A DNA stretch of 26,754 bases from a virus, in IMG/VR virus record IMGVR_UViG_3300031886_000031, positions 1 to 26,754 of that record; one strand, written 5' to 3'. Under the pieces are notes generated by a model, which did no database searches, was not told the DNA's origin, and saw nothing but the letters and a program-made list of their open reading frames with translations. The position numbers were made by a program, and so were the translations under genes. Every line of letters starts with the position of its first letter. Within the stretch, counting starts at the first letter, position 1. Positions 10,182-22,823 of the stretch are shown piece after piece.

Positions 10182-12233
10182 TTACATTTCTCCCTGTGGT
10201 GGTCGATGTTGGTTTCTAGATCTCTGCATCACTCTATTATTAGGAGCGTTCATAACCTCGTTTGCGCCCTGTGGTGGTGGTGGTTGCTGCACTGCATTAG
10301 GCATACCTTGCTGTTGTCCTTGGCCCATAGACTGTTGCATCATCATGTTTTGCATCATGTGCTTTTGAATTTCTTCAGGCATTGGTGGCAAAAATTTAGC
10401 AATATCTATACGCTCATCAAAGCGCTTAAATGTTTCTTCTAATAATTGGACATAAGGGTTAAACTGATCTGGAACGCCAGATTGTCGCATCATTTGTACC
10501 ATTTGAATATTCTGCATTATAATCGGCATTAACTCTATCCAACGCATTCGCTCCTCGTTGGTGTTTGGCATACCAGTACTACCAGCTGCTATCTTGATAA
10601 AAACAGAATCATAAAGTTGCTGCTTATTAAGTATAGGCCAAAATGCTTGTGGACCAGCAATTTCTATTGCTCTCTGTGGTTCGATCTCTTGTAATAACAC
10701 TTCGGCAGAATACCAAGCTATATCTTTCAACCAATCTTCTGTTATATCAATCTTCTCTTGCATTCTAGACGCCATACCTTCCTGCTGTATATTGGCTTCT
10801 GTTGCTGTCTTTGCACGCATAATACCACCGCGTTGCGCATCGCCTAGACCGCTTATCCATTCCATATCGGTTCTGATTGGTGTGGTGTCATAGACTATTG
10901 GGTTCATAGGTGGAGTCTGCACGGGTTGGAAAACCTGATTAACACCTAAACCAGATGCGTTAATCATAGCAATCTCACCAATAGTTGCGTTACTAAAAAC
11001 TTCTATATCTTCCTCGTTCACACGAGACGCATCCGCTACATAGAATGGAGCTGATAACTTCCTATGCTCTGCTAATTGATCACGTACAGTATTGTACTCA
11101 TCTTGCAAACTCATCATTAACTCTGTCTCAGATACTGGCCATTCTTGCCCATCAATCCAGTTGAGACCAAGAACAAAGTATGGAAAGAATCGCTCGCCCA
11201 TCTTTGTTGGCACCATAGGTTCTCTACACCACTTGTCACTACCTTCGCACCAGGTATACACGGTTTGAGTTGTCTTATCCCAATACTCCCACACAGCAAT
11301 AGCTAAATTAACATCTTCTTCTCCACTGTAAGATGCGCTATCTTTGTTTAATCTATTTGCAATTCCCTCTGTCGTTCTGCGGTATATAGTATATTTTTCA
11401 ATATCTTTCTTAGTCAGTTGGAAACGCTCCATTACATCCGAAGGGGTCATCCAAGTAACATTAGCTATCCACCGCGCAGAATTATAATCTTGTAAAGAAT
11501 CAAGAGAAGTATCCATTCTAAAATCTTCAGGACGAACAAATCCTAGATTTAAACCCTCTTGCTGCATGACCTCAACCCTCTGTGATAAAGAGTTTATTGT
11601 CATTTTTATTTCTTCTACAAGTTCGTCTTTATCGCCATAGTATCCATCACCAGATTCTAGTTGACGTATGTCATCTTGTATTTTTGCTAAACTATCTTGC
11701 GCGTCATTAAACTCTCTACTGATCAGTGGATCCTTGTAGTAATCTCTCTGATACGTTACTTTCACTATACCAATCTTGCTGGTCATACAAGAACGCAAGA
11801 CTTGTTTTGCAATCTTTTTTAGCTTTGCCTTCGTTAGCGACTCATTAAGTATAATTTCCAAAGTGTTAGAGAATAGATCTGCCACTCTATATTGAGATCC
11901 CTGTGGGTCAACATTTAAACCAGGTCGTATCTTGATTTCAGGGTTCTTCGAATAAATGTGCGGCAACAAACCCTGCAGTGTAGCGTGGATAATGTTACCC
12001 TTAATCAATCTTTTGCTTTGGCTGAATAACTGTTCTGAACTCATACCCATTGTTCTATCATTCAACCGCCCAAGGGAATAACGCCGAGCAGACTCTATCT
12101 CTTTGTATCTAGCTTTCCATTTTTGATAAGAAAGCTCTACATTCTGTTGATACTTTCTAATTAACCCCTTCGCATCTGCAGGGATGCCCACGTTAGCATT
12201 TGGGTTAATATTATTTAAGCTTAAATCTTCCAT
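10182..12233 (-). CDS. Portal protein
   Basis: 683 residues. Lies between terminase and scaffold and has the features of podovirus-type portals. These are an N-terminal helical clip/wing region (KGLIRKYQQNVELSYQKWKARYKEIESARRYS), RPGLNVDPQG, a VRPEDFRMDTSLDSL segment, WEYWDKTTQTVYTW with a PYFVLGLNWIDG strand, and the long crown-forming helices after residue 440. The last 60 residues are a Met/Gln/Pro-rich tail (MMQNMMMQQSMGQGQQQG, QQPPPPQG), probably a disordered barrel end inside the capsid. It forms the dodecameric DNA channel and docks the terminase. It starts two bases after the terminase stop. Confidence 0.87.
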   Translation of the reverse strand: MEDLSLNNINPNANVGIPADAKGLIRKYQQNVELSYQKWKARYKEIESARRYSLGRLNDRTMGMSSEQLFSQSKRLIKGNIIHATLQGLLPHIYSKNPEIKIRPGLNVDPQGSQYRVADLFSNTLEIILNESLTKAKLKKIAKQVLRSCMTSKIGIVKVTYQRDYYKDPLISREFNDAQDSLAKIQDDIRQLESGDGYYGDKDELVEEIKMTINSLSQRVEVMQQEGLNLGFVRPEDFRMDTSLDSLQDYNSARWIANVTWMTPSDVMERFQLTKKDIEKYTIYRRTTEGIANRLNKDSASYSGEEDVNLAIAVWEYWDKTTQTVYTWCEGSDKWCREPMVPTKMGERFFPYFVLGLNWIDGQEWPVSETELMMSLQDEYNTVRDQLAEHRKLSAPFYVADASRVNEEDIEVFSNATIGEIAMINASGLGVNQVFQPVQTPPMNPIVYDTTPIRTDMEWISGLGDAQRGGIMRAKTATEANIQQEGMASRMQEKIDITEDWLKDIAWYSAEVLLQEIEPQRAIEIAGPQAFWPILNKQQLYDSVFIKIAAGSTGMPNTNEERMRWIELMPIIMQNIQMVQMMRQSGVPDQFNPYVQLLEETFKRFDERIDIAKFLPPMPEEIQKHMMQNMMMQQSMGQGQQQGMPNAVQQPPPPQGANEVMNAPNNRVMQRSRNQHRPPQGEM

Positions 12234-12235
12234 TG

Positions 12236-13663
12236 CTATATCTCATACAGTTCATCGAGTTGATCAAACCAATCCATTGTAAACTTAGCTGGCCCTGTTA
12301 CCTTAGGTTTAGGTTTTAGTTTCCTGGCTCTCTTCATCATTAGTCCGTATCTCGTTGCGTCAAAGAGGTGATCCTCCGCGCTCGTGTCAATATCTTCAAT
12401 CCTCTTAGGGTCAGCAGGTAAGGAAGGCACCGTGCGCAACCAGTGCTGACAAGTATTAAATACCTTGAGAGTCCCACTATTGAGTCTATCAACCATTTCT
12501 TGTAAACCCTGAACTCTAGATCCGGGGCCCTTCGAACTAGCCTCCCACATAATACCATAATCAGCAAATACGTCTGCAACACTCTTCTGACGACCGTCTC
12601 GCATAAATATCGCCGAGTCCGCCACATTATTTCTGAATCTAACGCGTTGCGCACGCTCATCTTGTTCAAGATCTAAAATCCCCCTTGCGATATCTTCTAT
12701 TGGTGTTTCACTTCCCTTGTTCGGTTTAGAGCTCCAATAACGCTCTCTGTAGATATAGATTATACCATCATAGTCTTGTGTGAACCAGACGCATCCAGCT
12801 GGGGATTTGTATCCATGGTCGTAAGATTTCCACCTTCGCCACTCTAGCGGAACATCAAAAGGTTCAACAACGTGTATAGATGGATCCCAAACGTTTTCGA
12901 AGAAAGCTCCCGGAGCTATGTTCCAGTCACCTTCTAACCAAGCCTTAACTAGCCATGGAGGTCCACTACCTTTTATCCTTTCAATATAACCAGGATCATT
13001 ATCCATGAGTGGTTTGTTGTCTTGAATCTTGGATGGTATGAATATTCTGTTCTTATCATCAACGTCGATGTATCGCTCTTTTACCCAACCATGTCCTGGC
13101 CCGCCTGGGTTAGCAGATGCCCTGAATAGAACCGGTACGCCGGCAGCCGAACGCATAGTAGCCCCGAGCAAATCTATAGGATCGGACGACGGCCAGTTGC
13201 CAAGTTCGTCAAAGCCTAGGAAAGTTACGGAAAAACCCTGCAGCTTCATAGCATCAGCGTCTTCATCAAGATGTTTTAGTTGTAGTACAGACCCGCTGGG
13301 AGAGACCCATTTTCGCTCCCCGACTTTCCATTCCCAACCTTCCTGTACGAAGACATACTGACCCAGCTTAACGAGTTCCCCCGTTTCTGGAAACGTTCTG
13401 CGGAACAGAAGACCTTGCGCCTCCCTTCCGTATTTCTCTGCATGCTTGCGAAACGCTAAAAGCATTCCAACACTTTTAGAACCTCCTCGCGCTCCGCCAA
13501 ACAGTATATGAGGATGCTCACTATTAACAAACTTCTTCTGTGGACCGTCGAGCGCCGTCCAGCGAGTCTTCCGCGTTTCCACGCGTCGTTGCATTTCTGA
13601 TAATAGTAGAGCACGTATCTCTTCCTTTGGCAAACCGTTTGACAACGCCATAGCAAGACTCAT
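12236..13663 (-). CDS. Terminase large subunit
   Basis: 475 residues; ATP-driven DNA packaging motor with a headful or cos nuclease. The N-terminal ATPase has Walker A GGARGGSKS (residues 56-64), Walker B FLGFDE (148-153, D152 and E153) and a SANPGG coupling motif (183-188). The C-terminal RNase H-like nuclease shows the three expected acidic residues: D282 in SYDHGY, D349 in NVADSAIF and D435 in DHLFDATRY. Length is normal and no domain is missing. Its ATG overlaps the stop of the upstream gene (ATGA) and it precedes the portal by two bases, the usual order. Confidence 0.95.
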   Translation of the reverse strand: MSLAMALSNGLPKEEIRALLLSEMQRRVETRKTRWTALDGPQKKFVNSEHPHILFGGARGGSKSVGMLLAFRKHAEKYGREAQGLLFRRTFPETGELVKLGQYVFVQEGWEWKVGERKWVSPSGSVLQLKHLDEDADAMKLQGFSVTFLGFDELGNWPSSDPIDLLGATMRSAAGVPVLFRASANPGGPGHGWVKERYIDVDDKNRIFIPSKIQDNKPLMDNDPGYIERIKGSGPPWLVKAWLEGDWNIAPGAFFENVWDPSIHVVEPFDVPLEWRRWKSYDHGYKSPAGCVWFTQDYDGIIYIYRERYWSSKPNKGSETPIEDIARGILDLEQDERAQRVRFRNNVADSAIFMRDGRQKSVADVFADYGIMWEASSKGPGSRVQGLQEMVDRLNSGTLKVFNTCQHWLRTVPSLPADPKRIEDIDTSAEDHLFDATRYGLMMKRARKLKPKPKVTGPAKFTMDWFDQLDELYEI

Positions 13664-14304
13664 GTGTCAGTAGTCTCCACCATCTCATATGAGGAAACGA
13701 ATCCAGTACCAATAGATCTATCCTGCGTCCAAATACCGTCTCCTAAGTCTGGCGCCGCGTATGCAGCTCTTGTCCATCTACTAGCTTGATAAATGACACG
13801 CATAATACCAGCATTAATATCTCTCGTGATATATGTAACAAACCAAGGGTTTAGTTCTGTAATAGTTAGCGGGGTTGTATGGGTAGCTGCGCTACCGGCC
13901 CATCCTCGACCACCGACCGCTGGTATAACAAACTCGTCATTACCACTCGCGCTGGTGTTCGATGGGTTGATAGAAGTATAATATATACCCTCAGAACCAA
14001 TCTGTATATAACCCGGCGCAGGCCAAGTTGTTAGGGATACAGGCGTGGCCTCAATGATCAGGTCTCCGGCACCTATCGTTGCCACCAATGTCGACGTTTT
14101 GTCGCCATTAAAGTAGCCACCATTAGATGCCCCAACCCGCACACCATGCCAAATAGGATCACCTGTACCTATAGATATTTCCGTTACTTCTGTAGTGGTT
14201 CCAGTAGTGCCCGCATTCATGTAGGCTAACAAATCTGAATAAGTATAAGAACCGTTAAGCGTCAGTATCCTCTGGATGCCTGTTATAAGGTTTGGCGTTG
14301 CCAT
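13660..14304 (-). CDS. Virion-like protein upstream of terminase, unknown
   Basis: 214 residues. Beta-rich with Thr/Gly/Ser-rich surface segments: TYSDLLAYMNAGTTGTTTEVTEISIG, PGYIQIGSEGIYYTSINPSN and VGGRGWAGSAATHTTPLTI. The PGYIQIGSEGIYYTS segment resembles motifs seen in phage structural proteins where a surface strand pair carries a GY-x-I-G-E-I-Y pattern. No catalytic motif is visible. It overlaps the terminase start by four bases. I infer a head or neck component but cannot name it. Confidence 0.7.
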   Translation of the reverse strand: MATPNLITGIQRILTLNGSYTYSDLLAYMNAGTTGTTTEVTEISIGTGDPIWHGVRVGASNGGYFNGDKTSTLVATIGAGDLIIEATPVSLTTWPAPGYIQIGSEGIYYTSINPSNTSASGNDEFVIPAVGGRGWAGSAATHTTPLTITELNPWFVTYITRDINAGIMRVIYQASRWTRAAYAAPDLGDGIWTQDRSIGTGFVSSYEMVETTDT

Positions 14305-14307
14305 TTT

Positions 14308-14466
14308 TTACGAATGAGCACCATATGATGCACCCTTCATTGCATTAGCAATACTCTTCTTTTTAGCCTTCTTCTTCATTGGTTTCCCAGTAGCGGCAGA
14401 TTCTTGTTTAGCCGCTTTCACACCTTCTGGTGTGTAATCAAAATGTTTCTTTCCTACAATTGGCAT
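14308..14466 (-). CDS. Small basic protein (52 aa)
   Basis: 52 residues. ATG at 14464-14466 is preceded by an optimal AGGAGG site six bases upstream; the frame ends three bases before the next gene starts. The protein starts MPIVGKKHFDYTPEGVKAAK, has a lysine cluster KPMKKKAKKKSIANAM (residues 28-43) and ends KGASYGAHS. The SIANAMKG segment resembles IASAMRGS at the end of the next upstream gene. Strongly basic, so DNA or RNA binding, or packaging inside the head, is plausible. I do not recognise a named family. Confidence 0.8.
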   Translation of the reverse strand: MPIVGKKHFDYTPEGVKAAKQESAATGKPMKKKAKKKSIANAMKGASYGAHS

Positions 14467-14475
14467 AACTACCTC

Positions 14476-14922
14476 CTAACTAGGACGACCTTGATATTTA
14501 TCATCAGTACTACCCCTCATGGCGCTAGCAATTCCCCTACCGCCCTTACCTTTACCACCAAACATCTGGCCTTTGCCACCACTCGGCCTATCTCCACCTA
14601 GAGTGCCAACGTGTGCGCCTCTGCCTTTAGGGGGTCCAGAATAACCTCCTCTACCGCCCGAGGGCGCAGAGTAATCTCCTCTATTGGTAGAGGGTCCACC
14701 TCGTGGCGGGTCAGCTATAACAGGTCTCTTGGGTTTGGGTGGGATCCCCGCCGCCCTTCTTGCTGCAGCAGCTGCTTTTTTAGCCGCCCATTCAGGAGAC
14801 GCATGCACTTTAGTTCTATGCGCTGCTCTTACCCTTTCTTGTTTAGCCGCCCATTCGGGAGATGCATGAACTCTTGCTCTATGCTCTGCCTGACGTGGTG
14901 TTAATCGTCTTGGTTTGGTCAT
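14476..14922 (-). CDS. Basic repeat protein rich in Arg, Gly and Ala
   Basis: 148 residues, strongly basic, with a well-placed AGGAGG site five bases before the ATG. Residues 19-27 and 40-48 are an exact repeat HASPEWAAK with a 21-residue period, in a helical Arg/Ala-rich region. Residues 80-110 hold a ten-residue period of RGDYS/RGGYS/RGAHV units in a Gly/Pro-rich, probably disordered region. The end (RGIASAMRGST) resembles the end of the 52-residue neighbour. Nucleic-acid binding or a head-packaged histone-like role is inferred from composition only. Confidence 0.72.
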   Translation of the reverse strand: MTKPRRLTPRQAEHRARVHASPEWAAKQERVRAAHRTKVHASPEWAAKKAAAAARRAAGIPPKPKRPVIADPPRGGPSTNRGDYSAPSGGRGGYSGPPKGRGAHVGTLGGDRPSGGKGQMFGGKGKGGRGIASAMRGSTDDKYQGRPS

Positions 14923-14923
14923 G

Positions 14924-15169
14924 CTATCCTCCTAAGCTGGGATATTTACGGTGTACCGCTTTCCTAATACCGCTAGGATTTGGTGCGTTATGAGCATAGC
15001 TTAACGCAGCTTTAGCTCTTTTTCTTGTGTTAATTGGATATGATCCTTTTGGAGCACCTCCAGATGGGCCTGCGAAGCTCTTAACCCCTGGGTATTTACC
15101 TGCGTTAGAACCACCGGGTTTCTTTCTGTCTGCGCTATAATCACGCTGTTTAGCTGGTCTAGTTATCAT
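14924..15169 (-). CDS. Small basic conserved phage protein
   Basis: 81 residues from the ATG that overlaps the upstream stop (ATGA at 15166-15169): MITRPAKQRDYSADRKK. An in-frame ATG 18 bases further upstream (15187) is possible but has no ribosome-binding site either, so coupling decides the start. The core APKGSYPINTRKRAKAALSYAH and HNAPNPSGIRKAVHRKYPSLG resembles small phage proteins in which a PDGSFPI-like strand is followed by a helix and a basic tail (DUF6582-like, by memory). Function unknown. Confidence 0.7.
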   Translation of the reverse strand: MITRPAKQRDYSADRKKPGGSNAGKYPGVKSFAGPSGGAPKGSYPINTRKRAKAALSYAHNAPNPSGIRKAVHRKYPSLGG

Positions 15170-15621
15170 GTCAATGCTATATAGCAATCAAGATCTGCGC
15201 CGCTTGCAGAATAAGCACTGATAATCTGAAGATCTTCTAATACTGGGGTTGCCACGGTGGTATCATCATCCGCTTCCATCATCGTTGATGCTGTGGTTAA
15301 CATGAAACTACCACTTGGTTCAACCTCTACCCAACAATTTGTAGCATTACCTCGTATGTTTATACTGACTGTGTTGGTATCATCCTTATTAGTGATACGC
15401 AAGTATTTAACGTTAGCCCGCACAAATTCACCAGCTGCAACTGCTCCACCGAAGTTAAACAAAGTTCTAACATTGCCAGAATCTATAGTTACAATACGCT
15501 GGTTAATTTCGTTAATAGAAGCTATAGACAGTGTATTTGTGGCCCCCATATTGGACCCATTCAACGTGATACTTTCTGTAGTTGTCACGGTCAGTGTAGC
15601 CGAACTAATTGTTGATGCCAT
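15166..15621 (-). CDS. Virion-associated beta protein
   Basis: 151 residues. Pattern SIASINEINQRIVTIDSGN, LFNFGGAVAAGEFVRANVKYLRITNKDDTNTVSINI and VEPSGSFMLT is one I recognise from small beta-sandwich virion proteins of marine phages, in which a vKYlRITNlDdtN core is conserved. It ends in a region consistent with a jelly-roll closing strand (DLQIISAYSASGADLDCYIALT). The start overlaps the DUF5681 gene by 17 bases and its stop overlaps the next start. Head decoration or fibre attachment is possible; position does not decide. Confidence 0.7.
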   Translation of the reverse strand: MASTISSATLTVTTTESITLNGSNMGATNTLSIASINEINQRIVTIDSGNVRTLFNFGGAVAAGEFVRANVKYLRITNKDDTNTVSINIRGNATNCWVEVEPSGSFMLTTASTMMEADDDTTVATPVLEDLQIISAYSASGADLDCYIALT

Positions 15622-15919
15622 CGTCTTCCCTCTCTATTCCTGTTTCAAAGTCTTTCATTAAGTCAACCAGTTCTTGATCGCTTAATCCCTTCACAGATTC
15701 ATTGACGTTTATATTCTGATCTAACGCCCGCATTGATGGAACACAACGTTCTACCAAGATTCTAGCTGCCTGAACATCCCCTTCCTTTGCAGCGTTAGCT
15801 AGTACCTCAATAACATCTGGCAGGTGGTCGCTAATCTGACTCCTTAACTGAGCCATCGTTTTTTGACTCTTTCGCGGTCTCCCTCTTGGGTTGCCCGATT
15901 GTCCTTGTTTCCACGGCAT
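15605..15919 (-). CDS. DUF5681 protein, putative terminase small subunit
   Basis: 104 residues starting MPWKQGQSGNPRGRPRKSQK, the signature W-K-x-G-Q-S-G-N-P-x-G-R-P of DUF5681 proteins, which are associated with phage packaging genes. A helical middle (VIEVLANAAKEGDVQAARILVERCVPSMRAL) and a C-terminal helix ending EREDDGINN follow. The ATG at 15917-15919 overlaps the upstream stop (TAATG) and has AGGAGG nine bases upstream. A TTG nine bases earlier directly abuts that site and is unlikely. Five genes separate it from the large subunit. The small-terminase role (DNA recognition for packaging) is inferred from the family. Confidence 0.75.
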   Translation of the reverse strand: MPWKQGQSGNPRGRPRKSQKTMAQLRSQISDHLPDVIEVLANAAKEGDVQAARILVERCVPSMRALDQNINVNESVKGLSDQELVDLMKDFETGIEREDDGINN

Positions 15920-17025
15920 TATGTCCAACCTCCTGCACCCGATCCACCGTCTCCACCGCCATAAGAATCTCCACCGTCTCCTCCCCCGCCGAAGCTTAAG
16001 CCAGCATGGTGTCCGCCTCTCGGTGCTCCGCCTTTCGATTTGCCTCCGCCGCCAAATGATAGTCCTTTGTGGTGTCCTCCTTTTGGAGCTCCACCAGGCG
16101 CCTTACCCTTTCCCCCGCCTCCACTCTTCTTGCTAGCTCTAGCTTTAGCTGCTCTCGCCATTGATGATTTTCTTGCACTGGCCGCTTCGGCTGCAGCTTT
16201 GTGTCCATATGGGTCATGGTCAGAGACACCATCATCCCGTGGAGCGGCTCGCGCTGGTGCAGCTGCAGGAGCAGGAGCAGAAGCAGGGGTAGATGCTGCT
16301 CGAGGAGTTGAAGTAGCAGCTGCTGCCCTGCCTGGTAGACCTAATAAACCTTTAAACCCTGTTACCGCTGTTGGGTTCATAGCTTTAGTATGCGCTGAAT
16401 ATGGATCTTCATCATCCTTTTCAGTACGACTACGTGAGCGACTACGAGCCCCAATGTGTCCAGGAGCTATAGCGGTCATGCCAAAGTGAGGTGCAGCACC
16501 ACGCACTCCAGATGCGCCCATAACGCTCATAGTCCCCATGTCACGACTAGATGGATCTGGATCACTATAAATACCCTGGTTACCTGCTAATGTAACTACA
16601 GCATCTTCCATTTGTTGTTGGATAGCAGCGATGTCTTGCATATTTCTATCCCAAGAACCCTTGTATCCAAACTTACTTTTACCAGAACCTTTAACTGCTT
16701 GGGCCAAATTATGTAGTTGACCTGCAGTAGCTAGACTTTCTACTTTTCCAGGATTTAATTGATTCTCTGCAGGCATTTGTGACATAAAGTTTGCCATCTT
16801 GTCTCTTTGGCCTTGTGCTCTACTAACGCCAGGAACTTGCCCAGGCGTCATGCCTGTTTTGTCTTTTCCTAGGTTTTTTCCTACGGTACCATATGGACCA
16901 ACCTGATCAAAATTTTTAGTAAATTGACGTTCACCCCTACTGTGTGCTTGATGTCTATCCCAACCCTCACTGTCCACGCCATAAAGGCCAGATAGTGCGG
17001 CTCTACTTACTGGATTTGTTGCCAT
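15919..17025 (-). CDS. Low-complexity Gly/Ala/Ser protein, first late gene
   Basis: 368 residues, first gene on the late strand, with AGGAG six bases before its ATG. Residues 1-190 have a moderately complex sequence (LSGLYGVDSEGWDRHQAHSRG, MSQMPAENQLNPGKVESLA) and may fold. An RSRSRSRTEKDDEDPYS stretch (about 195-212), an Ala/Pro-rich linker, Lys/Arg-rich helices and two tandem copies of GGAP-K/R-GGHH-K/A-GLSFGGGG (about 311-328 and 332-349) follow, ending in Gly/Asp. I do not recognise it. A structural or DNA-condensing role in the head is possible; the C-terminus is probably disordered. Confidence 0.72.
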   Translation of the reverse strand: MATNPVSRAALSGLYGVDSEGWDRHQAHSRGERQFTKNFDQVGPYGTVGKNLGKDKTGMTPGQVPGVSRAQGQRDKMANFMSQMPAENQLNPGKVESLATAGQLHNLAQAVKGSGKSKFGYKGSWDRNMQDIAAIQQQMEDAVVTLAGNQGIYSDPDPSSRDMGTMSVMGASGVRGAAPHFGMTAIAPGHIGARSRSRSRTEKDDEDPYSAHTKAMNPTAVTGFKGLLGLPGRAAAATSTPRAASTPASAPAPAAAPARAAPRDDGVSDHDPYGHKAAAEAASARKSSMARAAKARASKKSGGGGKGKAPGGAPKGGHHKGLSFGGGGKSKGGAPRGGHHAGLSFGGGGDGGDSYGGGDGGSGAGGWT

Positions 17026-17219
17026 ATGTGTCTCCTGCCCCCCAGGAATAAGACATATATTCTACCATACTGTAAAAAAATTCAGAAAAAATTTAGTTTC
17101 AAAAAAAGAAGGATCCTGTGTCTCCGTATCAGAACAGACCCCCAATATTATAATATTCTAATATTACTCTATAGTTCAATTGATTTATAGGTAAATGATT
17201 ATGTGCTAATGTACTGTGT
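17026..17219. promoter_or_regulatory. Divergent early/late control region
   Basis: Non-coding and AT-rich, between the first late gene (leftward) and the first early cassette (rightward). It contains a perfect 14-base palindrome AATATTATAATATT (17144-17157) directly followed by another AATATT. The 15-mer ATAATATTCTAATAT at 17150-17164 recurs exactly at 17830-17844. A leftward promoter for the late block should lie here; TAGAAT at 17064-17059 with CTGAAT at 17085-17080 (minus strand, 15-base spacing) is only a weak candidate. Poly-A/T tracts at 17074-17107 may bend the DNA. Confidence 0.5.
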
Positions 17220-17253
17220 GCTTATTTTAATTCACATTTTTTATTTCTATAAT
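17220..17253 (+). promoter_or_regulatory. Early promoter copy 1
   Basis: GCTTATTTTAATTCACATTT at 17220 matches two other upstream copies (18078, 19245) at 18 of 22 columns in all three. Read as a promoter it gives TTTTAA (17225-17230), a 17-base spacer and a consensus TATAAT (17248-17253). Transcription would start near 17260, about 37 bases before the first cassette gene. The conserved ACATTT inside the spacer is unusual for an ordinary host promoter and could be a binding site. Confidence 0.65.
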
Positions 17254-17296
17254 TGAGAGTCATTTCAATTTCAACTACCAAGGGGCCACACCCACT

Positions 17297-17638
17297 ATGA
17301 GCAAAGCACCAATGAAACTTCACACACAAAAAGGCAAGCGTCGACTTTGGCTCGAAGAGCAGAAGTACGGGCTGCCGGGCTTCGCATGCGGTTCGCGATT
17401 CAACGTAGTGTACAACGAAGATTCTGTCGAAATCAAAGCTGATCCGAATGGCACCAACACGGTGTTCACGAGAGTCAAGAAAGCGTCAAAGAGAATTCCA
17501 CAAGATCGTAAATTTTCCATCGTCGGAATTCACAATTCTCGTCTCAAGGAGCTCTTTGGAGATACTGAGAATGGTGTAGATACTCCGGTATCGTATGAGA
17601 TGTCAGAAGGCTACATCAAGATCATGGTGGCATCATGA
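17297..17638 (+). CDS. SymE/AbrB-like small beta-barrel protein, paralog A
   Basis: 113 residues. The core KGKRRLWLEEQKYGLPGFACGSRFNVVY resembles the SymE/AbrB-type swapped-hairpin pattern R-x-W-L-E-G-x2-L-x3-G-F-x2-G-x2-Y-x-V. A similar domain is found alone or at the N-terminus of some phage cytosine methyltransferases. A second half (KFSIVGIHNSRLKELFGD ... YEMSEGYIKIMV) repeats the strand-helix-strand plan. It is about 64 percent identical, by hand alignment, to the protein at 18383-18769. A weak AAGGGG site sits 11 bases before the ATG. As the first early gene, a DNA-binding regulatory or anti-host role is likely but unproven. Confidence 0.75.
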   Translation: MSKAPMKLHTQKGKRRLWLEEQKYGLPGFACGSRFNVVYNEDSVEIKADPNGTNTVFTRVKKASKRIPQDRKFSIVGIHNSRLKELFGDTENGVDTPVSYEMSEGYIKIMVAS

Positions 17639-17715
17639 CTGGTCTTGAAATTCTAGTCTGCACTACATCGTTCTTCTTTCTTGCTTACGTTTTTCTTTGG
17701 TTACACAAGCAGTAA
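17635..17715 (+). CDS. 26-residue membrane peptide
   Basis: ATG overlaps the stop of paralog A (ATGA at 17635-17638), the coupling style used throughout this genome, and the stop lies five bases before a strong terminator. The peptide starts MTGLEILVCTTSFFFLAY and continues through VFLWLHKQ: one transmembrane helix covers almost its entire length, with a short basic end. Such peptides can be small toxins, holin-like factors or regulators of membrane enzymes. No homologue is recognised. Its length makes chance possible, though the overlap and the terminator distance argue for a real gene. Confidence 0.55.
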   Translation: MTGLEILVCTTSFFFLAYVFLWLHKQ

Positions 17716-17720
17716 ATTCT

Positions 17721-17745
17721 GGGGCCCTTCGGGGCCCTTTTTTTT
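17721..17745 (+). terminator. Rho-independent terminator of cassette 1
   Basis: GGGCCC (17722-17727), UUCG loop (17728-17731), GGGCCC (17732-17737), then eight T (17738-17745). An outer G-U pair extends the stem. This is a textbook intrinsic terminator placed right after the 26-residue peptide. Confidence 0.93.
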
Positions 17746-17748
17746 CAT

Positions 17749-17820
17749 GATGTTTTCGCCAATTTTTCGCGAGATGAGGTCGGTTATTCTATTGGGAGAC
17801 CGGTTACGGATGTTTTCGCC
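17749..17820. repeat. Direct repeats in the non-coding region
   Basis: GATGTTTTCGCC occurs exactly at 17749-17760 and 17809-17820, 60 bases apart. Between them CGGTTA occurs at 17781-17786 and 17801-17806, 20 bases apart, flanked by GGTC and GACC that could pair. Together with the elements up to 18073 this looks like an iteron-type or operator cluster. No coding frame is supported in 17746-18148. Confidence 0.6.
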
Positions 17821-17829
17821 TAGCATATC

Positions 17830-17884
17830 ATAATATTCTAATATACTACTTACTGCCCCACCCCGAAGGCAGGGAAGTATATTA
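17830..17884. repeat. AT-rich 15-mer plus large inverted repeat
   Basis: ATAATATTCTAATAT (17830-17844) is an exact copy of 17150-17164. It overlaps an inverted repeat: TAATATACT (17839-17847) pairs with AGTATATTA (17876-17884), and inside it CTGCC (17853-17857) pairs with GGCAG (17868-17872) around a C-rich loop. This gives a 46-base two-part hairpin or cruciform. Confidence 0.6.
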
Positions 17885-17902
17885 GCATTTCATTATATTC
17901 TA

Positions 17903-17975
17903 AAGATGCTTAGAGGACTGGGGGGCCAGATCCTCTTAAGAATCTCAGATTCTCGTGCGTGCGCCCGAGCATCTT
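17903..17975. ncRNA. Branched multi-hairpin element, candidate ncRNA or origin structure
   Basis: An outer eight-base stem AAGATGCT (17903-17910)/AGCATCTT (17968-17975) encloses two strong hairpins. The first is AGAGGA-CTGG, GGGG loop, CCAG-(A)-TCCTCT (17912-17936, ten pairs with one bulged A). The second is AGAATC-TCA-GATTCT (17939-17953). A weak third GC-rich stem may form at 17954-17967. The fold is 73 bases and cloverleaf-like. It is not a tRNA: the first arm is far too long and no T-loop GTTC-like sequence is in place. It has no T-run terminator of its own. The strand is undecided because the structure forms on both. Confidence 0.5.
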
Positions 17976-18054
17976 GATTAAAACAGAACCTCAGATAAGA
18001 TAAAGCGTTGATAATATTATGATCTTGTGATATACCAGCACCATTGTTATCTAT

Positions 18055-18073
18055 GATTATCTGTTTGATAATC
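18055..18073. promoter_or_regulatory. Inverted repeat next to promoter copy 2 (operator candidate)
   Basis: GATTATC (18055-18061), five-base spacer TGTTT, GATAATC (18067-18073). The perfect seven-base dyad ends five bases before the conserved promoter motif of cassette 2. A further perfect palindrome ATAATATTAT is at 18011-18020. Spacing of the half-sites is 12 bases centre to centre, close to one helical turn, as for dimeric regulators. Confidence 0.45.
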
Positions 18074-18077
18074 TGAT

Positions 18078-18111
18078 GCTTAATTTAAGTTACATTTTTA
18101 AAAACTAGAGT
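18078..18111 (+). promoter_or_regulatory. Early promoter copy 2
   Basis: GCTTAATTTAAGTTACATTT at 18078 is the second copy of the conserved motif. Promoter reading: ATTTAA (18083-18088), 17-base spacer, TAGAGT (18106-18111), a weaker -10 than copy 1. The first gene of cassette 2 begins at 18149. Confidence 0.62.
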
Positions 18112-18148
18112 TGGAGATACATTTTTTTTTATAACATTGAGGTATTTT

Positions 18149-18379
18149 ATGGGCGTTCCAAACCATTATCGCCAAGAGGCGATACGTAATATGTATAGCA
18201 GGTGTATCGAGGCTAATGACTGGAGTACTTACAGTCGGACGATGCAAATTGAGTCTGAGTGGGACGATCTGAGCAATGAGCTGAGGATGGACTATGCGGA
18301 CTTTGAGGAGTACGAGGAAGCTGAGTGGATGTTAAATAGTCGTATATACGATGATTCAAACATTAACCGATGGAGCTAA
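18149..18379 (+). CDS. Small acidic protein of cassette 2, unknown
   Basis: 76 residues starting MGVPNHYRQEAIRNMY. The frame could open at a TTG 12 bases earlier, but GAGG (18139-18142) sits six bases before this ATG and overlaps that TTG, so the ATG is preferred. Predicted largely helical and acidic in the second half (DFEEYEEAEWMLN), rich in Tyr and Trp. Not recognised. First gene after promoter copy 2 and three bases before paralog B, so likely a small host-takeover or regulatory protein of the early phase. Confidence 0.72.
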   Translation: MGVPNHYRQEAIRNMYSRCIEANDWSTYSRTMQIESEWDDLSNELRMDYADFEEYEEAEWMLNSRIYDDSNINRWS

Positions 18380-18382
18380 AAC

Positions 18383-18769
18383 ATGTCAGGAATTGAACTG
18401 AAACCGATGAAAATCCATACGCAAAAAGGTAAAAGGCGCTTGTGGCTTGAGCAGCAACGATACGGGCTTGAGGGTTTTACACCGGGTTCCAAGTTTAAAG
18501 TTACATATCATGCCGATTCAATCGAGATCGAGGCTGATCCTGAAGGGTCTAACAAGGTCTTTACTCGAGTTAAAAAGGCATCGAAACTCCACCCAACTGA
18601 GCGACAGTTTGCAATCGTTTCGTTACACAACAGTAAATTAAAAGCTATATTTGGTGATACCGACGATGGTATCGATACTGAATGTCGTTATGAGCAAATG
18701 CCTGGCTATTTAAAAATATGGCCAGTAAATGCAGTAGCGGTTGAACAGGTATATGCCGAAGCTGCGTAA
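18383..18769 (+). CDS. SymE/AbrB-like small beta-barrel protein, paralog B
   Basis: 128 residues. PMKIHTQKGKRRLWLEQQ and VFTRVKKASK are identical or nearly so in paralog A, and the first ~110 residues align without gaps apart from a short N-terminal extension. A C-terminal tail of about 15 residues (NAVAVEQVYAEAA) is unique to B. The GF-x2-G-S-K-F-K-V-T-Y segment fits the SymE/AbrB-like fold. GGAG is seven bases before the ATG. A strong terminator starts ten bases after the stop. Two diverged copies in adjacent cassettes suggest gene duplication together with the promoter motif. Biochemical role unknown; nucleic-acid binding inferred. Confidence 0.75.
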   Translation: MSGIELKPMKIHTQKGKRRLWLEQQRYGLEGFTPGSKFKVTYHADSIEIEADPEGSNKVFTRVKKASKLHPTERQFAIVSLHNSKLKAIFGDTDDGIDTECRYEQMPGYLKIWPVNAVAVEQVYAEAA

Positions 18770-18778
18770 GTAACATTA

Positions 18779-18843
18779 AGCACCAGCATCTCAAGAACGG
18801 GCCGACCAGCGACGCCACGTGAAAGATGTTGGTGCTTTTTTTT
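18779..18843 (+). terminator. Long-stem terminator of cassette 2
   Basis: AGCACCAGCATCT (18779-18791) pairs with AGATGTTGGTGCT (18824-18836) over 13 positions including one G-U, followed by eight T (18836-18843). The 32-base loop contains GGC/GCC that can pair further. The size of the loop, with a zinc-ribbon gene starting 24 bases later and no promoter between, suggests controlled read-through. Confidence 0.88.
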
Positions 18844-18866
18844 ATCTTGAAAACGAGGACAATGAG

Positions 18867-19088
18867 ATGAAGTGCGAGATTTGCGGTGAGAAACTGTACT
18901 ATAGTCAGGAAGAGAATGGTCTTTGTTGGTCTTGTCAACAAAAGACAGAGACTGGTAAGTGCAAGACTTGCGATGAGACATTAACTGTTTTCGAGCTGTA
19001 CGGTAATGGAATGTGTTGGTATTGTGAGAAAGACGATGGACAAACCAATATAATCGAGATGACAACAATGGATGATTGGTGCACATGA
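18867..19088 (+). CDS. Double zinc-ribbon protein
   Basis: 73 residues starting MKCEICGEKL. The frame opens earlier at a GTG inside the terminator stem (18819), but GAGGA (18855-18859) precedes this ATG at seven bases. Two successive four-Cys units are visible: C3-x2-C6 ... C20-x2-C23 and C32-x2-C35 ... C50-x2-C53, with the echo NGLCWSC and NGMCWYC. Each is a short zinc ribbon. The C-terminus is acidic/Thr-rich. Such small ribbons bind nucleic acid or proteins, for example RNA polymerase. Its stop overlaps a second zinc-ribbon gene (ATGA). Confidence 0.75.
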   Translation: MKCEICGEKLYYSQEENGLCWSCQQKTETGKCKTCDETLTVFELYGNGMCWYCEKDDGQTNIIEMTTMDDWCT

Positions 19089-19240
19089 TAAAATGCGAGA
19101 TCTGTGGTGGAACTGAAGAGGTTGTAAATGATATATGTTGGTGGTGTGAGGCAGCTGCAAATGATCCAGATCCATATGTCGATGATAGTCTCAATGAGGT
19201 CAGTATGGGACGATTTGATGATGATCCTCCAGAGTGGTAA
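19085..19240 (+). CDS. Single zinc-ribbon protein
   Basis: 51 residues. ATG overlaps the stop of the double zinc-ribbon gene (ATGA at 19085-19088). It starts MIKCEICGG and has C4-x2-C7 ... C18-x2-C21 (KCEIC ... DICWWC), a third copy of the same unit, followed by an acidic tail (NDPDPYVDDSLNE, FDDDPPEW). The acidic tail is reminiscent of nucleic-acid mimicry, but this is speculation. It ends four bases before promoter copy 3 begins. Confidence 0.72.
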   Translation: MIKCEICGGTEEVVNDICWWCEAAANDPDPYVDDSLNEVSMGRFDDDPPEW

Positions 19241-19244
19241 TGGC

Positions 19245-19278
19245 GCTTAGTTTAAGTTACATTTGTTTAATCTATATA
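19245..19278 (+). promoter_or_regulatory. Early promoter copy 3
   Basis: GCTTAGTTTAAGTTACATTT at 19245 is the third motif copy. Promoter reading: GTTTAA (19250-19255), 17-base spacer, TATATA (19273-19278). With that -10, transcription would start near 19285, past the GAGG site (19281-19284) of the next gene. Either the mRNA has a very short leader or the true -10 is TTTAAT at 19266-19271. Confidence 0.6.
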
Positions 19279-19292
19279 TAGAGGTAAAACTT

Positions 19293-19538
19293 ATGACCGA
19301 AATCTATACACATAGAGTATACAGTGACATACCAAGGCGAGTTCGTAACCGTATCATAGCTAATGTTCAAGCTATCATTGAGCAGCACGGCGATAATCCT
19401 GATCAGCGAGAGGACATGATCGACGATCTTATCGATGTGGCATATGACTCGTATCACGTTGGATGGCAGTCTGGATTCATTGATGACACTCAAGAGGATC
19501 ATGACTTAAGTAATTTCAACCCCGGAGGATCAAAATGA
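19293..19538 (+). CDS. Small acidic protein of cassette 3, unknown
   Basis: 81 residues starting MTEIYTHRVYSDIPRRV. The frame can open at a TTG inside the promoter motif (19263), but GAGG (19281-19284) eight bases before this ATG favours the start given. Predicted helical (RNRIIANVQAIIEQHGDN, EDMIDDLIDVAYDSYHVGW), acidic, with a short Asn/Pro/Gly tail. No family recognised. It leads a run of three overlapping small genes. Confidence 0.72.
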   Translation: MTEIYTHRVYSDIPRRVRNRIIANVQAIIEQHGDNPDQREDMIDDLIDVAYDSYHVGWQSGFIDDTQEDHDLSNFNPGGSK

Positions 19539-19702
19539 GGTTCATACCAGAGCCTGAATGGCGGTTTAACCAAGAATCTTTTCGTAACGCTTGCAATTCG
19601 GAGCGTTCACGGAGGATACGCAGTAACTTTAAACGTTTACAAACTCAACGACGGAGAGCAATGTACAATGCGCAAATACGCGACGCAACGACTTATAGCT
19701 AA
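19535..19702 (+). CDS. Small Arg-rich protein, unknown
   Basis: 55 residues. ATG overlaps the previous stop (ATGA at 19535-19538), with GGAGG seven bases upstream inside the end of that gene. It begins MRFIPEPEWRFNQESF and continues with a strongly basic stretch (SERSRRIRSNFKRLQTQRRRAMYNAQ), probably one amphipathic helix. The charge suggests RNA or DNA binding. Not recognised. Its last 35 bases overlap the start of the next gene. Confidence 0.7.
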   Translation: MRFIPEPEWRFNQESFRNACNSERSRRIRSNFKRLQTQRRRAMYNAQIRDATTYS

Positions 19703-19910
19703 AGATGTACCAGTTCACTTGAAAAGCCTATTCGAAGGACAGAACCTTCGGTTTCGTGGACGTGGTTCACGTGTGAAAGCTGTTGAGAGAGTAATGAGCA
19801 GCAAGGCTCTTCGTACTAAGTACGATGCAGGACCTGGCTTGTTAGCACGATTCATGCAAGATCTACCGCTTGAATTTGCTGATCGTATGTCTGTATATAG
19901 CCGTAGCTGA
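19668..19910 (+). CDS. Small basic protein of cassette 3, unknown
   Basis: 80 residues, MRKYATQRLIAKDVPVHL to MSVYSRS. Net positive with LRFRGRGSRVKAVERVMSSKALRTKY in the middle. GGAG (19653-19656) is 11 bases before this ATG, inside the preceding Arg-rich gene, which it overlaps by 35 bases; the overlapping protein ends QIRDATTYS. Not recognised. The last gene of cassette 3, followed by a structured non-coding stretch and a terminator. Confidence 0.68.
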   Translation: MRKYATQRLIAKDVPVHLKSLFEGQNLRFRGRGSRVKAVERVMSSKALRTKYDAGPGLLARFMQDLPLEFADRMSVYSRS

Positions 19911-20008
19911 TCAGGCGTTAGGAGTCTGGTTAGGATGATACGCCGGCTATAAATTAGGTCCGAGTAAGCCCGGATATGTACGAGAGCTGGCAACGGACCT
20001 ACCGCCCT
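19911..20008 (+). ncRNA. Structured 3' non-coding stretch, candidate RNA element
   Basis: No coding frame is supported. Nested inverted repeats: TCAGGCG (19911-19917) pairs with CGCCCTGA (20003-20010) with one bulge, and inside it TAGGTCCG (19955-19962) pairs perfectly with CGGACCTA (19994-20001). The bases in between contain GC-rich short repeats (GCCGGC 19932-19937, CCCGG 19969-19973). The outer stem shares its last two bases with the first arm of the terminator that follows, so the two folds compete, as in attenuators. Known RNA families could not be matched. Confidence 0.42.
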
Positions 20009-20035
20009 GAGCATGGCGTTAAACTGCTCTTTTTT
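20009..20035 (+). terminator. Terminator of cassette 3
   Basis: GAGCA (20009-20013), 11-base loop, TGCTC (20025-20029), then six T (20030-20035). The stem is short, so termination may be partial, which suits read-through into the genes from 20048. A promoter-like TTAAAC, 17 bases, TAAAAT (20019-20047) overlaps it and could restart transcription. Confidence 0.65.
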
Positions 20036-20047
20036 AACATCTAAAAT

Positions 20048-20590
20048 ATGGAGTACGACGAGACAATGAACGAGTCACCTTGTGACACATGTCATAACTA
20101 CTGGGTCTGCGTAGAAGGATCCAGAGCCTGTTCAGACTTTAAGTTATTCTACGATACGGGTAAGATCACCCATCATGACCGCTCACCTAATTGGTATATC
20201 GACATGCCACCACTAGCTATCACTGTGAGAGAGCTCTCAGAACGCTGTGGCTTCGGCAAAGAAACTAACAAACTGAAACACTGGCTGGGCTTGAAAGTCT
20301 ATCAACTGATAGAGGATCCGCTTGGCTTTTACTTTTTGAGGCACTTAGATGGTGGAATCGAGGATCTACACGAAGGAAAAAGCAGCAAAAGACTACGATA
20401 CGCTAAAGCTGCATGCCGCCAGGTGGTGTTGGAAGCGAAAGCACGAGAAAGTACCACCCGCCAATACGATCACTTGGGAGCAGTGGTTCGGCGAAAAATG
20501 GGGCGAAACATTGCAGAACTACGCAGCGACGAAGATAGCAGCGAGGAGAAACAAGTAAAATGGGTAAAACTATCAGAAACAATGTGGTAG
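20048..20590 (+). CDS. Cys-motif protein with an overlapping gene in its second half
   Basis: 180 residues. The first half looks authentic: SPCDTCHNYWVCVEGSRACSDFKLFY has a C-x2-C-x5-C-x6-C cluster of the small zinc-binding type seen in phage proteins, and PNWYIDMPP with a helical ITVRELSERCGFGK segment follows. From about residue 105 the frame overlaps a second, convincing gene (20349-20558) in another frame, and its own sequence becomes Arg/Ser/Glu-rich and less protein-like. The real C-terminus is therefore uncertain. A second ATG at 20066 is possible. First gene of the long replication operon. Confidence 0.6.
   Translation: MEYDETMNESPCDTCHNYWVCVEGSRACSDFKLFYDTGKITHHDRSPNWYIDMPPLAITVRELSERCGFGKETNKLKHWLGLKVYQLIEDPLGFYFLRHLDGGIEDLHEGKSSKRLRYAKAACRQVVLEAKARESTTRQYDHLGAVVRRKMGRNIAELRSDEDSSEEKQVKWVKLSETMW
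20349..20558 (+). CDS. Small Trp-rich protein nested in another frame
   Basis: 69 residues, MVESRIYTKEKAAKDYDTL to KIAARRNK. GAGG (20338-20341) lies seven bases before its ATG, and it ends one base before the next gene (20560), so it fits the operon chain. ARWCWKRKHEKV and ITWEQWFGEKWGETLQNY look like genuine protein sequence. It lies entirely inside the end of the frame 20048-20590. Either both are translated, or one is the remnant of a frameshift in the other. Function unknown. Confidence 0.7.
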   Translation: MVESRIYTKEKAAKDYDTLKLHAARWCWKRKHEKVPPANTITWEQWFGEKWGETLQNYAATKIAARRNK

Positions 20591-20793
20591 CAAAGCATTC
20601 TGAAAAGTATAATAAGCCGAAGACAATACGTGACAAGAAGAAGGACTTCTACAGGCCTGATGCTAAGAGAGAGTTTGAAGAGGCTATTGAGGATCTATCA
20701 TTCGATGAGGATAACCGTAAAGATGCGATCATCATACAGTACCAGGATGATCTAGCCAGGAGTCAAGAAGATGGATGGCCATACGAGGACTGA
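20560..20793 (+). CDS. Small charged conserved phage protein
   Basis: 77 residues, MGKTIRNNVVAKHSEKYNKP. The KPKTIRDKKKDFYRPDAKREF block is familiar from short conserved proteins in early regions of marine phages. An acidic C-terminal half follows (EEAIEDLSFDEDNRKDA ... ARSQEDGWPYED). It begins one base after the nested gene's stop. Lys/Asp alternation suggests a protein-binding role. Not named. Confidence 0.72.
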   Translation: MGKTIRNNVVAKHSEKYNKPKTIRDKKKDFYRPDAKREFEEAIEDLSFDEDNRKDAIIIQYQDDLARSQEDGWPYED

Positions 20794-20794
20794 A

Positions 20795-20974
20795 ATGGAC
20801 TGCACAACTGAAGCTGTCATGTTGTTTGAGGATGTAGTAGATGTATTCGAGCACCGTATGATCGAAGGATGTATAGCTAACGAATTTAAGTGTACGTACA
20901 ATGCTGAAAAGGGTGAGTTCGTAGCTGAGATCAATGGTAAATTTTATGTGTCAATGACTAGGGAGAAGCGATGA
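20795..20974 (+). CDS. Small protein before the hydroxymethylase gene
   Basis: 59 residues from MDCTTEAVMLFEDVVDVF. An ATG 24 bases upstream is possible, but GAGGA five bases before this ATG, and the stop of the previous gene one base before it, decide the start. CTYNAEKGEFVAEINGKFYVSMTREKR at the end is strand-rich. Its stop overlaps the next gene start (ATGA at 20971-20974). Unknown function; it could act with the pyrimidine hydroxymethylase it is coupled to. Confidence 0.72.
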   Translation: MDCTTEAVMLFEDVVDVFEHRMIEGCIANEFKCTYNAEKGEFVAEINGKFYVSMTREKR

Positions 20975-21807
20975 GGTTCAGGACATTACAAGATGCATAT
21001 GAGGGTATGCGGTACGAGTTGAGGATGAATGGCAGCGAGGTTGTAGCCAAGTCCTCCAAGGGAGACAGCAAGGCAATAGAACTACTCAACCAGAGTATTA
21101 CTATTGAAGACGTCTGTCAGCTTAACATATACAATCCAAAGAGAAAGTTCAATGTTCGCTACGCTATACTCGAATTTATGTGGTATCTATCGATGGATCC
21201 AAAGGTTAGAAATATTGGGAAAGCAGCCTCTATCTGGAAAGATATTGCTGATAGCGATGGTGTCGTACATAGTAATTATGGCGGTTGTCTTTATCGGGGC
21301 TGGGATCGAGTTGTTAATGAGTTGGTGAGGTTTCCAGAGTCAAGGCGAGCTGTGATAGCCTTGAATCAGCCTGATACAGACTATGGTATGAAGGATGTAC
21401 CATGTACTATGTTTGTTCAATTCTTTATCCGAGATGGTAAGCTGGACATGATCTGGAATATGAGGTCCAGTGACTTTGCATTCGGGTTCTGTAACGATGT
21501 AGCTGTGGGTATGCTGTTCATGCAGATGATGCGTAACGAACTGCTTAGCGCAGAAGATGAGTGGATACAACTGGGTTCATTCACATACAATGCGACATCG
21601 TTCCACTGCTACGATAATCACTGGTCTCTTATCTTCGATGACTACCACAATGAGGTATGGGATAAGTTTGAGTTGATCGAAGATTTTACGTGGCAGCATG
21701 TTATGCAGGATATGCTTTACTTACCAAGCAGAGATATGTCACTGGATGGGATGTGGGCTATGGTCGATGAGTTCAAACAAGAGCATTTCGTGGGAGGTAA
21801 ACTATGA
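20971..21807 (+). CDS. Thymidylate-synthase-fold deoxypyrimidine hydroxymethylase, probably dCMP-specific
   Basis: 278 residues. TS-fold landmarks in order: FNVRYAILEFMWYLS (E68), SIWKDIADSDGVVHSNYGG, FPESRRAVIAL, catalytic Cys in DVPCTMF (C145), QFFIRDGKLD, NMRSSDFAFGF (R165, D168, G172) and FHCYDNH (H212, Y214). The motif GFCND puts D176 exactly 31 residues after C145, where TS has its substrate-selecting Asn (E. coli C146 to N177) and T4 dCMP hydroxymethylase has Asp (GFRND). NMRS-x-D-x2-FGF and SNYG also match the T4 enzyme. This predicts 5-hydroxymethylation of dCMP rather than dTMP synthesis. Coupled both sides by ATGA overlaps. Specificity is inferred. Confidence 0.85.
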   Translation: MRFRTLQDAYEGMRYELRMNGSEVVAKSSKGDSKAIELLNQSITIEDVCQLNIYNPKRKFNVRYAILEFMWYLSMDPKVRNIGKAASIWKDIADSDGVVHSNYGGCLYRGWDRVVNELVRFPESRRAVIALNQPDTDYGMKDVPCTMFVQFFIRDGKLDMIWNMRSSDFAFGFCNDVAVGMLFMQMMRNELLSAEDEWIQLGSFTYNATSFHCYDNHWSLIFDDYHNEVWDKFELIEDFTWQHVMQDMLYLPSRDMSLDGMWAMVDEFKQEHFVGGKL

Positions 21808-22214
21808 GTAGAAGTATACTGGAAGAAGCACAGGACATCGTATATAAAAATGCGGGTGGGCATGACTATGGTTCATTCGACCAGAACATGCAAGATGCTT
21901 GTAACTTTGCTATGGTGATGACAGGTAACGCTGTGACTATCGATATGGCCTATGCTATACTGATCGGTCTTAAGTTTGCAAGAGAGAAGCAGGTACATCG
22001 GATTGATAACATGGTAGATGTTTGTGGTTACATGGCTGGATGGTCTGATTACAAAGAGAAACAAGCATGGGCTGACGCCAAGAACAACGATCCAGAATTG
22101 CATGCAACAGAACAACAGAAACGGGAGGTAGCAGAGGATGGCGATACATATAGAGATAACGACGGACGAGAAGAGCGAAGCACAGGCAGCGTTCCAGTTA
22201 GTGAGCTTCCTTAA
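21804..22214 (+). CDS. DUF6378-type phage protein
   Basis: 136 residues. The pattern SILEEAQDIVYKNAGGHDYGSF ... QNMQDACNFAMVMTGNAVTIDMAYAILIGLKFAREK ... HRIDNMVDVCGYMAGW is that of DUF6378, all-helical phage proteins related in look to MazG-like NTP pyrophosphohydrolases. A role in nucleotide control fits its place between hydroxymethylase and dUTPase but is inferred. After about residue 108 the sequence is hydrophilic and overlaps the next gene by 77 bases. ATGA overlap with the upstream gene. Confidence 0.75.
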   Translation: MSRSILEEAQDIVYKNAGGHDYGSFDQNMQDACNFAMVMTGNAVTIDMAYAILIGLKFAREKQVHRIDNMVDVCGYMAGWSDYKEKQAWADAKNNDPELHATEQQKREVAEDGDTYRDNDGREERSTGSVPVSELP

Positions 22215-22326
22215 CCAGTTGGATGTAACAGGTAAAATAGAGGCTTCATGGACTGATCGTAAGCCTATGTCAATCACAGTCGACTGGTCTGGTCGAGTTG
22301 AAACTATCAAGGATCATGTAGAATGA
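22138..22326 (+). CDS. Small protein overlapping the DUF6378 gene
   Basis: 62 residues, MAIHIEITTDEKSEAQAAF to VETIKDHVE. The strand-helix-strand-strand plan (HIEITTD, AAFQLVSFLNQLDV, KIEASWTD, PMSITVDWSG) looks like a small alpha/beta domain. A GGGAGG site sits about ten bases before the ATG. It overlaps the end of the upstream frame by 77 bases and the dUTPase start by four (ATGA), consistent with a real coupled gene. Function unknown. Confidence 0.68.
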   Translation: MAIHIEITTDEKSEAQAAFQLVSFLNQLDVTGKIEASWTDRKPMSITVDWSGRVETIKDHVE

Positions 22327-22823
22327 GCTTACCACAAGTACTAAGGTTCTGTAAAATACGGGATGTAATGTCTCCATCAAGAGCACATCAATATGATGCG
22401 GGTATTGACTTCTACGTGCCAGCTGACTATAAATCAGAGGGTATACAGCCAGGTCACTCACAGAAAATAGCTAGCGGTATCAAGGCTGATGTTACAGTGG
22501 GTATGGCATTAGTAGCTTTCAATAAATCGGGTGTGGCTACAAAGCACGGGCTTCAGGTTGGTGCTTGCGTTGTAGATTCAGGTTACGAGGGTGAGATACA
22601 TCTGCATGTAATGAATGTCAGTCATCGTAATGTATTCATACTGCCTAATACTAAGCTGGTTCAGTTCCTGTATCTTCCCATTGCTCTGCCTCAGGTTATA
22701 GAGGTTGAGCAGCATCGTCTATTTGACATCCAATCACAGCGAGGTGATGGCGGTTTTGGAAGTACAGATGACTTCGGTGGTTGGGACTTCGGTAAGGAAT
22801 TAACTGTCGGGCAAGAGTTATGA
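22323..22823 (+). CDS. dut: Trimeric dUTPase
   Basis: 166 residues; hydrolyses dUTP to dUMP and pyrophosphate, keeping uracil out of phage DNA. All five motifs are visible: I YDAGIDFYV (24-32), II FNKSGVAT (66-73), III GACVVDSGYEGEI (80-92, with the water-activating D85), IV KLVQFLYLP (111-119), and V QRGDGGFGSTD (139-149). Length is normal for the trimeric family, with a 17-residue extension after motif V. Overlaps neighbours by four bases on both sides. Its product dUMP, or dCMP from related steps, would be a pool for the hydroxymethylase three genes upstream. Confidence 0.95.
   Translation: MSLPQVLRFCKIRDVMSPSRAHQYDAGIDFYVPADYKSEGIQPGHSQKIASGIKADVTVGMALVAFNKSGVATKHGLQVGACVVDSGYEGEIHLHVMNVSHRNVFILPNTKLVQFLYLPIALPQVIEVEQHRLFDIQSQRGDGGFGSTDDFGGWDFGKELTVGQEL

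Follow-up and report, generated by a model that had tools for sequence, protein, structure and literature searches.

A probable T4 gp42-type dCMP hydroxymethylase leads a conserved gene cassette with DUF6378 and dUTPase in uncultivated phages

The window, namely the whole stretch of 26,754 nucleotides analysed here, very probably encodes a folate-dependent dCMP hydroxymethylase (HMase) of the T4 gp42 type at the head of a gene cassette, and its likely purpose would be to bring hydroxymethyl-dCTP into the phage DNA as a protection from restriction. The new point is that the genes for HMase, the DUF6378 protein and dUTPase form a conserved, tightly packed cassette. The phage is uncultivated and approximately 45 kb in size, and it would represent a further lineage of phages which likely carry hydroxymethylcytosine (hmC) in their DNA without the helper genes of T4. 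The constant company of HMase and dUTPase makes the role of DUF6378, a widespread phage protein, biochemically testable. The genes concerned are the following.

20771..20974, + strand: 67-aa ORF, with its stop overlapping the HMase start (ATGA)
20971..21807, + strand: predicted dCMP hydroxymethylase (TS superfamily), 278 aa, from homology, residues, profile, tree and structure model
21804..22214, + strand: DUF6378 protein (PF19905), 136 aa, with its start overlapping the HMase stop (ATGA)
22323..22823, + strand: trimeric dUTPase (PF00692), third cassette gene, from a Pfam match

Substrate and reaction type of the HMase

The HMase ORF matched the thymidylate synthase (TS) family PF00303 of Pfam at 1.1e-18, and four environmental relatives were found at 77–86% identity. 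The dN/dS of 0.11–0.17 among the window and three relatives revealed purifying selection, so the gene appears to be maintained. The HMase was aligned with E. coli ThyA (EcTS), T4 gp42 and phage homologues in a set of 23 sequences, four of which were canonical TS. The first-pass annotation had equated the spacing of C145 and D176 with that of C146 and N177 in EcTS and compared the Asp with T4 gp42; the alignment agreed, with a distance of 31 residues and with Asp in the HMase at the column (EcTS 177) where Asn occupied all four canonical TS. The two motifs quoted there (GF-x-ND and NMRS-x-D-x2-FGF) were likewise present, as GFCND and NMRSSDFAFGF, and matched GFRND and NMRSNDVVFGF of T4. The codons of the key residues are as listed.

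21271..21279, + strand: S101-N102-Y103, equivalent to T4 S94/Y96 (proton-abstraction water; role from PMC6400193)
21394..21396, + strand: D142, at the position of Leu143 in E. coli TS and of T4 D145, the residue which activates the substrate water
21403..21405, + strand: C145, catalytic nucleophile by alignment, equivalent to T4 C148 and EcTS C146
21496..21498, + strand: D176, cytosine-selective Asp, equivalent to T4 D179 and EcTS N177

The signature of the T4 enzyme comprises the cytosine-specific D179, the D145 which activates the substrate water and precedes the Cys by three residues, S94, Y96, V85 replacing TS Trp83, and the absence of the TS tail (PMC6400193). The HMase shared with T4 gp42 (PDB 1b5e, 6a9b) the Cys, Asp179, Asp145, Ser94-x-Tyr96, Glu60 and the Ser/Arg phosphate site, at an overall identity of about 30–33%; its I92 stood at the Trp83 position, E68 and the Arg pair R125/R126 were also present, and S166 with R125 formed the Ser/Arg pair that selects a deoxynucleotide. 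The C-terminus was longer than in T4 (278 vs 246 aa) and ended in EHFVGGKL, without the V-A-(I/V) terminus of TS; thus the TS-type sealing tail was absent, as in T4. Furthermore, positions 147 and 177 were reported in MetaGPA to best separate TS homologues of modified from those of unmodified environmental contigs, position 177 being mostly Asp on the modified ones (PMC8670742); the HMase has Thr, in place of TS His147, and Asp at these two determinants. A phmmer search gave the T4 dCMP hydroxymethylase as the best solved relative (3.5e-23, compared with approximately 1e-11 for E. coli ThyA), and the phylogenetic tree placed the clade of the window, which was long-branched, together with the T4 gp42 clade and apart from TS with a support of 96/93.

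An ordinary thymidylate synthase that had drifted in sequence would share the fold, the superfamily and the PF00303 match, and the nearby dUTPase would supply its dUMP for conversion to dTMP. This reading is nevertheless highly improbable in the light of four replacements (Asp for Asn177, Asp for Leu143, Thr for His147 and Ile for Trp83) and the missing C-terminal tail. When ten aligned HMases served as the query of a scan, at least 599 stretches came up, at least 584 of them encoding relatives; among the 80 environmental relatives kept and examined, Asp at 176 and D142-x-x-C-T, hence also the Thr after the Cys, could be seen in every one. The scan patterns covered MRS and SNYG, which biases counts of S, N and Y by selection, while the conservation of D176, whose column the patterns left out, and of D142 is free of this bias.

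The first-pass annotation had taken the Asp as the mark of a dCMP hydroxymethylase. The assignment itself held well; the Asp alone proved insufficient, since RB69ORF048c also has Asp at 177, and further residues are required. According to literature cited in PMC8670742, this Asp by itself turns TS into a dCMP methylase, as in the engineered N229D TS, and such an enzyme would give DNA with 5-methylcytosine, as in phage Xp12. In addition, TS-scaffold proteins with the Asp switch adjoin DUF6378 in seven loci. A dCMP methylase is still quite improbable in the window, as the HMase has D142 and S-x-Y and is without the TS tail or Trp83, features linked to hydroxymethylation in T4 (PMC6400193). The seven proteins, which carry P-V-Y, Leu at -3 and Cys-His and end in VNVIK, are themselves predicted from sequence to be natural dCMP methylases giving 5-methylcytosine DNA; each lies directly after DUF6378.

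L140:650-1426, Asp-bearing TS-scaffold protein
L141:755-1531, Asp-bearing TS-scaffold protein
L143:1122-1898, Asp-bearing TS-scaffold protein
L144:2020-2796, Asp-bearing TS-scaffold protein
L168:1250-2026, Asp-bearing TS-scaffold protein
L177:1373-2149, Asp-bearing TS-scaffold protein
L192:4054-4830, Asp-bearing TS-scaffold protein

The 5-hydroxy-dCMP synthase of Mosigvirus is a TS-superfamily enzyme and a homologue of the HMase (PMC13390438). RB69ORF048c was near-identical to AfhB (PDB 9iqc, 9iqu), a TS-fold dCMP hydroxylase found by structure search, and we infer from this near-identity together with PMC13390438 that it is the 5-hydroxy-dCMP synthase. A flavin-dependent enzyme of this type has in common with the HMase the fold, the dCMP substrate and Asp at 177 (PMC13390438); it is nonetheless very improbable here. 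RB69ORF048c carries A for W89, T-F-Y for S-N-Y, E for D142, N for D168 and F for Y214, a residue set (A89, T-F-Y, E142, N168, F214) which may define 5-hydroxy-dCMP synthase activity, whereas the HMase retains the T4 residues at these divergent sites. The Asp matching D168 orients the folate in TS (PMC6400193), and the differences at W89, S101, N102, D142, D168 and Y214 therefore make the HMase look like the folate type. In a profile built from 27 window-like sequences, the T4 enzyme scored 243 bits, compared with 135 for MilA, 89 for EcTS and 83 for AfhB. Arabinosyltransferase or sugar genes were also not recognised.

The AF2 model of the HMase (pLDDT 91) adopted the TS-superfamily fold. The closest solved structure in the VIA structural alignment was the CMP hydroxymethylase MilA (Z 26.4; PDB 5b6e), with AfhB and TS next (22–23); the T4 enzyme was among the top Foldseek matches, not among the VIA matches listed. 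MilA also shares the hydroxymethylation chemistry and the Asp with the HMase. Its preference for CMP rests on Ala176/Lys133 (PMC5175136), which are the dCMP-selective Ser/Arg pair S166/R125 in the HMase, and the gene setting in the window is one of dNTP metabolism, which makes a MilA-type ribonucleotide hydroxymethylase extremely improbable.

Thus, the assignment of the HMase as a hydroxymethylase acting on dCMP and not dUMP is strongly supported by residues, profile, tree and structure comparison, and its predicted product is most likely hm5dCMP. By analogy with T4, C145 would attack C6 of dCMP, D176 would recognise and protonate the cytosine N3, E68 would activate methylene-tetrahydrofolate, and D142 with S101/Y103 would position a water molecule to quench the exocyclic methylene. 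This water quench would yield 5-hydroxymethyl-dCMP and not the reduced methyl product.

Conservation of the three-gene cassette

The DUF6378 and dUTPase genes close to the HMase had been suspected to form a nucleotide-pool module; the neighbours were real and more conserved than suspected. In a six-frame search, all 24 close loci whose sequence continues downstream of the HMase had a DUF6378 start between -16 and +48 nt relative to the HMase end; two more close loci end at the HMase and stand outside this count. The dUTPase came next in 22 of these loci, and L048 and L054, where it was missing, have only 234 and 259 nt downstream, compared with at least 423 nt wherever it was found. The 24 loci and the window represent 13 groups at 70% HMase identity, L038/L002 and L039/L004 being the same contigs and L041/L042 near-duplicates. 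The cassette genes are apparently translationally coupled. The closest relatives also carry a small ORF at the position equivalent to the 67-aa ORF.

The reverse search, started from DUF6378 alone, returned 80 loci, with a TS-family gene within 5 kb in 57 and a readable key column in 54. The TS was of the Asp type in all 54 of these loci (three also had a canonical Asn TS), some contigs overlapping with the HMase-started set and the loci being phylogenetically non-independent. As a background for this count, the 2% of phage records with tblastn matches to the HMase (1,008 of 50,697, many T4-like) serve as a rough guide only, and a scan started from dUTPase gave only close relatives. A whole-contig search of 26 loci with a missing or cut TS gene found a match in three, two of which were cut genes at the contig end.

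Directly upstream of the HMase, L059 (4916-5944) shares with 10 further close loci a protein family of approximately 330 aa (MKYxxGNN...); the L059 member had no Pfam or NCBIfam match, and the family was not seen in the lineage of the window. A scan of bacterial genomes with a narrow alignment gave three MAG contigs. The cassette was present on the bacterial MAG contigs L216 and L217, which come from Flavobacteriales and Methylococcaceae bins and are possibly mis-binned phage contigs; the Methylococcaceae contig measures 305,838 bases.

DUF6378 and the supply of hydroxymethyl-dCTP

The first-pass annotation had noted no glucosyltransferase or dCTPase in the window, which was confirmed, and had suggested a search of the remaining genome for a dCTPase and a dNMP kinase. 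The near-complete sister genome G003 (42,894 bases, approximately 80% identity to the window across long stretches) did not provide them: dCTPase, dNMP kinase and glycosyltransferase were recognised neither in the window nor in the searches of G003. Likewise, the dUTPase_2, MazG and PRA-PH families were found neither in these two nor in three other relatives, the Walker A motif occurred in the window and G003 solely in the DnaB-like helicase, and among the G003 proteins scanned no DNA polymerase or glycosyltransferase was recognised. Since no phage kinase was recognised, phosphorylation of hmdCMP would presumably fall to a host kinase, unless the phage has a kinase that escaped recognition. 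Without a recognised kinase or dCTPase, the supply of hmdCTP and full replacement of cytosine would therefore hang on host or unknown enzymes. If hmC is truly in the DNA, either a host kinase acts and plain dCTP is tolerated, or DUF6378 replaces T4 gp56.

The DUF6378 protein matched PF19905 with 35.3 bits (cut-off 27.1), and its model was all-alpha with a pLDDT of 73. No match to PDB folds was obtained; the best VIA match, CmTad1 (Z 6.7 over 51 residues), was in the usual range of helical bundles and not meaningful. The hhalign comparisons with PRA-PH-like and Nmad1-like sets, made with shallow profiles, gave no significant match, and a reading of DUF6378 as a MazG/dCTPase homologue had neither profile nor fold support. 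Judged from gene order, DUF6378 may be a dCTP remover or a partner of the HMase. A broader proposal, in which it would be the cognate partner of Asp-type TS (dCTP remover or HMase subunit) in a gp56-independent pathway of cytosine replacement, is tentative and somewhat doubtful; if true, the cassette would be a minimal hmC-DNA kit for small phages using host polymerase and kinase.

Two other readings of DUF6378 were rejected. The Walker A motif of a P-loop kinase was absent, and as an exclusive marker of cytosine modification it was rejected upon its occurrence in ThyX-bearing mycobacteriophages and dhillonviruses, which indicates that its role is wider than cytosine modification; DUF6378 is thus found in phages lacking HMase as well. 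PHROG 474 / 1167 and RefSeq phage records call DUF6378 'phosphofructokinase', while other database entries list it as hypothetical, and nothing was found which supports the 'phosphofructokinase' name.

Related phage systems and the phage lineage

The first-pass annotation had pointed out that hydroxymethylcytosine made by a phage outside the T4 group would imply DNA modification as an anti-restriction shield. Such an enzyme outside T4 is not new, because Asp-type TS is present in several cultured non-T4 phages, namely Xanthomonas phage Xp15, Bacteroides phage BF503P2, Lactobacillus phage ATCCB, Enterococcus phages and Acinetobacter phage MD-2021a, and in MetaGPA contigs (PMC8670742); non-T4 dCMP hydroxymethylase was thus already known. 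Xp15, BF503P2, ATCCB, MD-2021a and the modified MetaGPA contigs resemble the window phage in the Asp/Thr signature and the nucleotide-metabolism setting. In Xp15 a carbamoyltransferase lies near the TS homologue and in ATCCB a beta-glucosyltransferase adjoins it, whereas neither was recognised in the lineage of the window. Similarly, the linked glucosyltransferase, gp1 kinase and gp56 dCTPase of T4 had no recognised counterparts in the window phage.

The genome of G003 was circularly permuted relative to the window, and about 2 kb of the window (13.6–15.7 kb) was missing from it. G003 also encoded exonuclease-like and SSB-like proteins. A class II-type ribonucleotide reductase (insertion-domain match) was located past the window end at G003rc 9465-11324 (L004), and a 2567-aa protein without a Pfam match was encoded at G003rc 12609-20312 on the strand opposite to the early genes. 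Finally, two ORFs of the window (17297-17638 and 18383-18769) had near-identical N-termini (PMK-[LI]-HTQKGKRRLWLE) and are likely duplicates, and a likely duplicate pair with the same N-terminal motif could also be observed in G003rc at 522-866 and 1348-1770.
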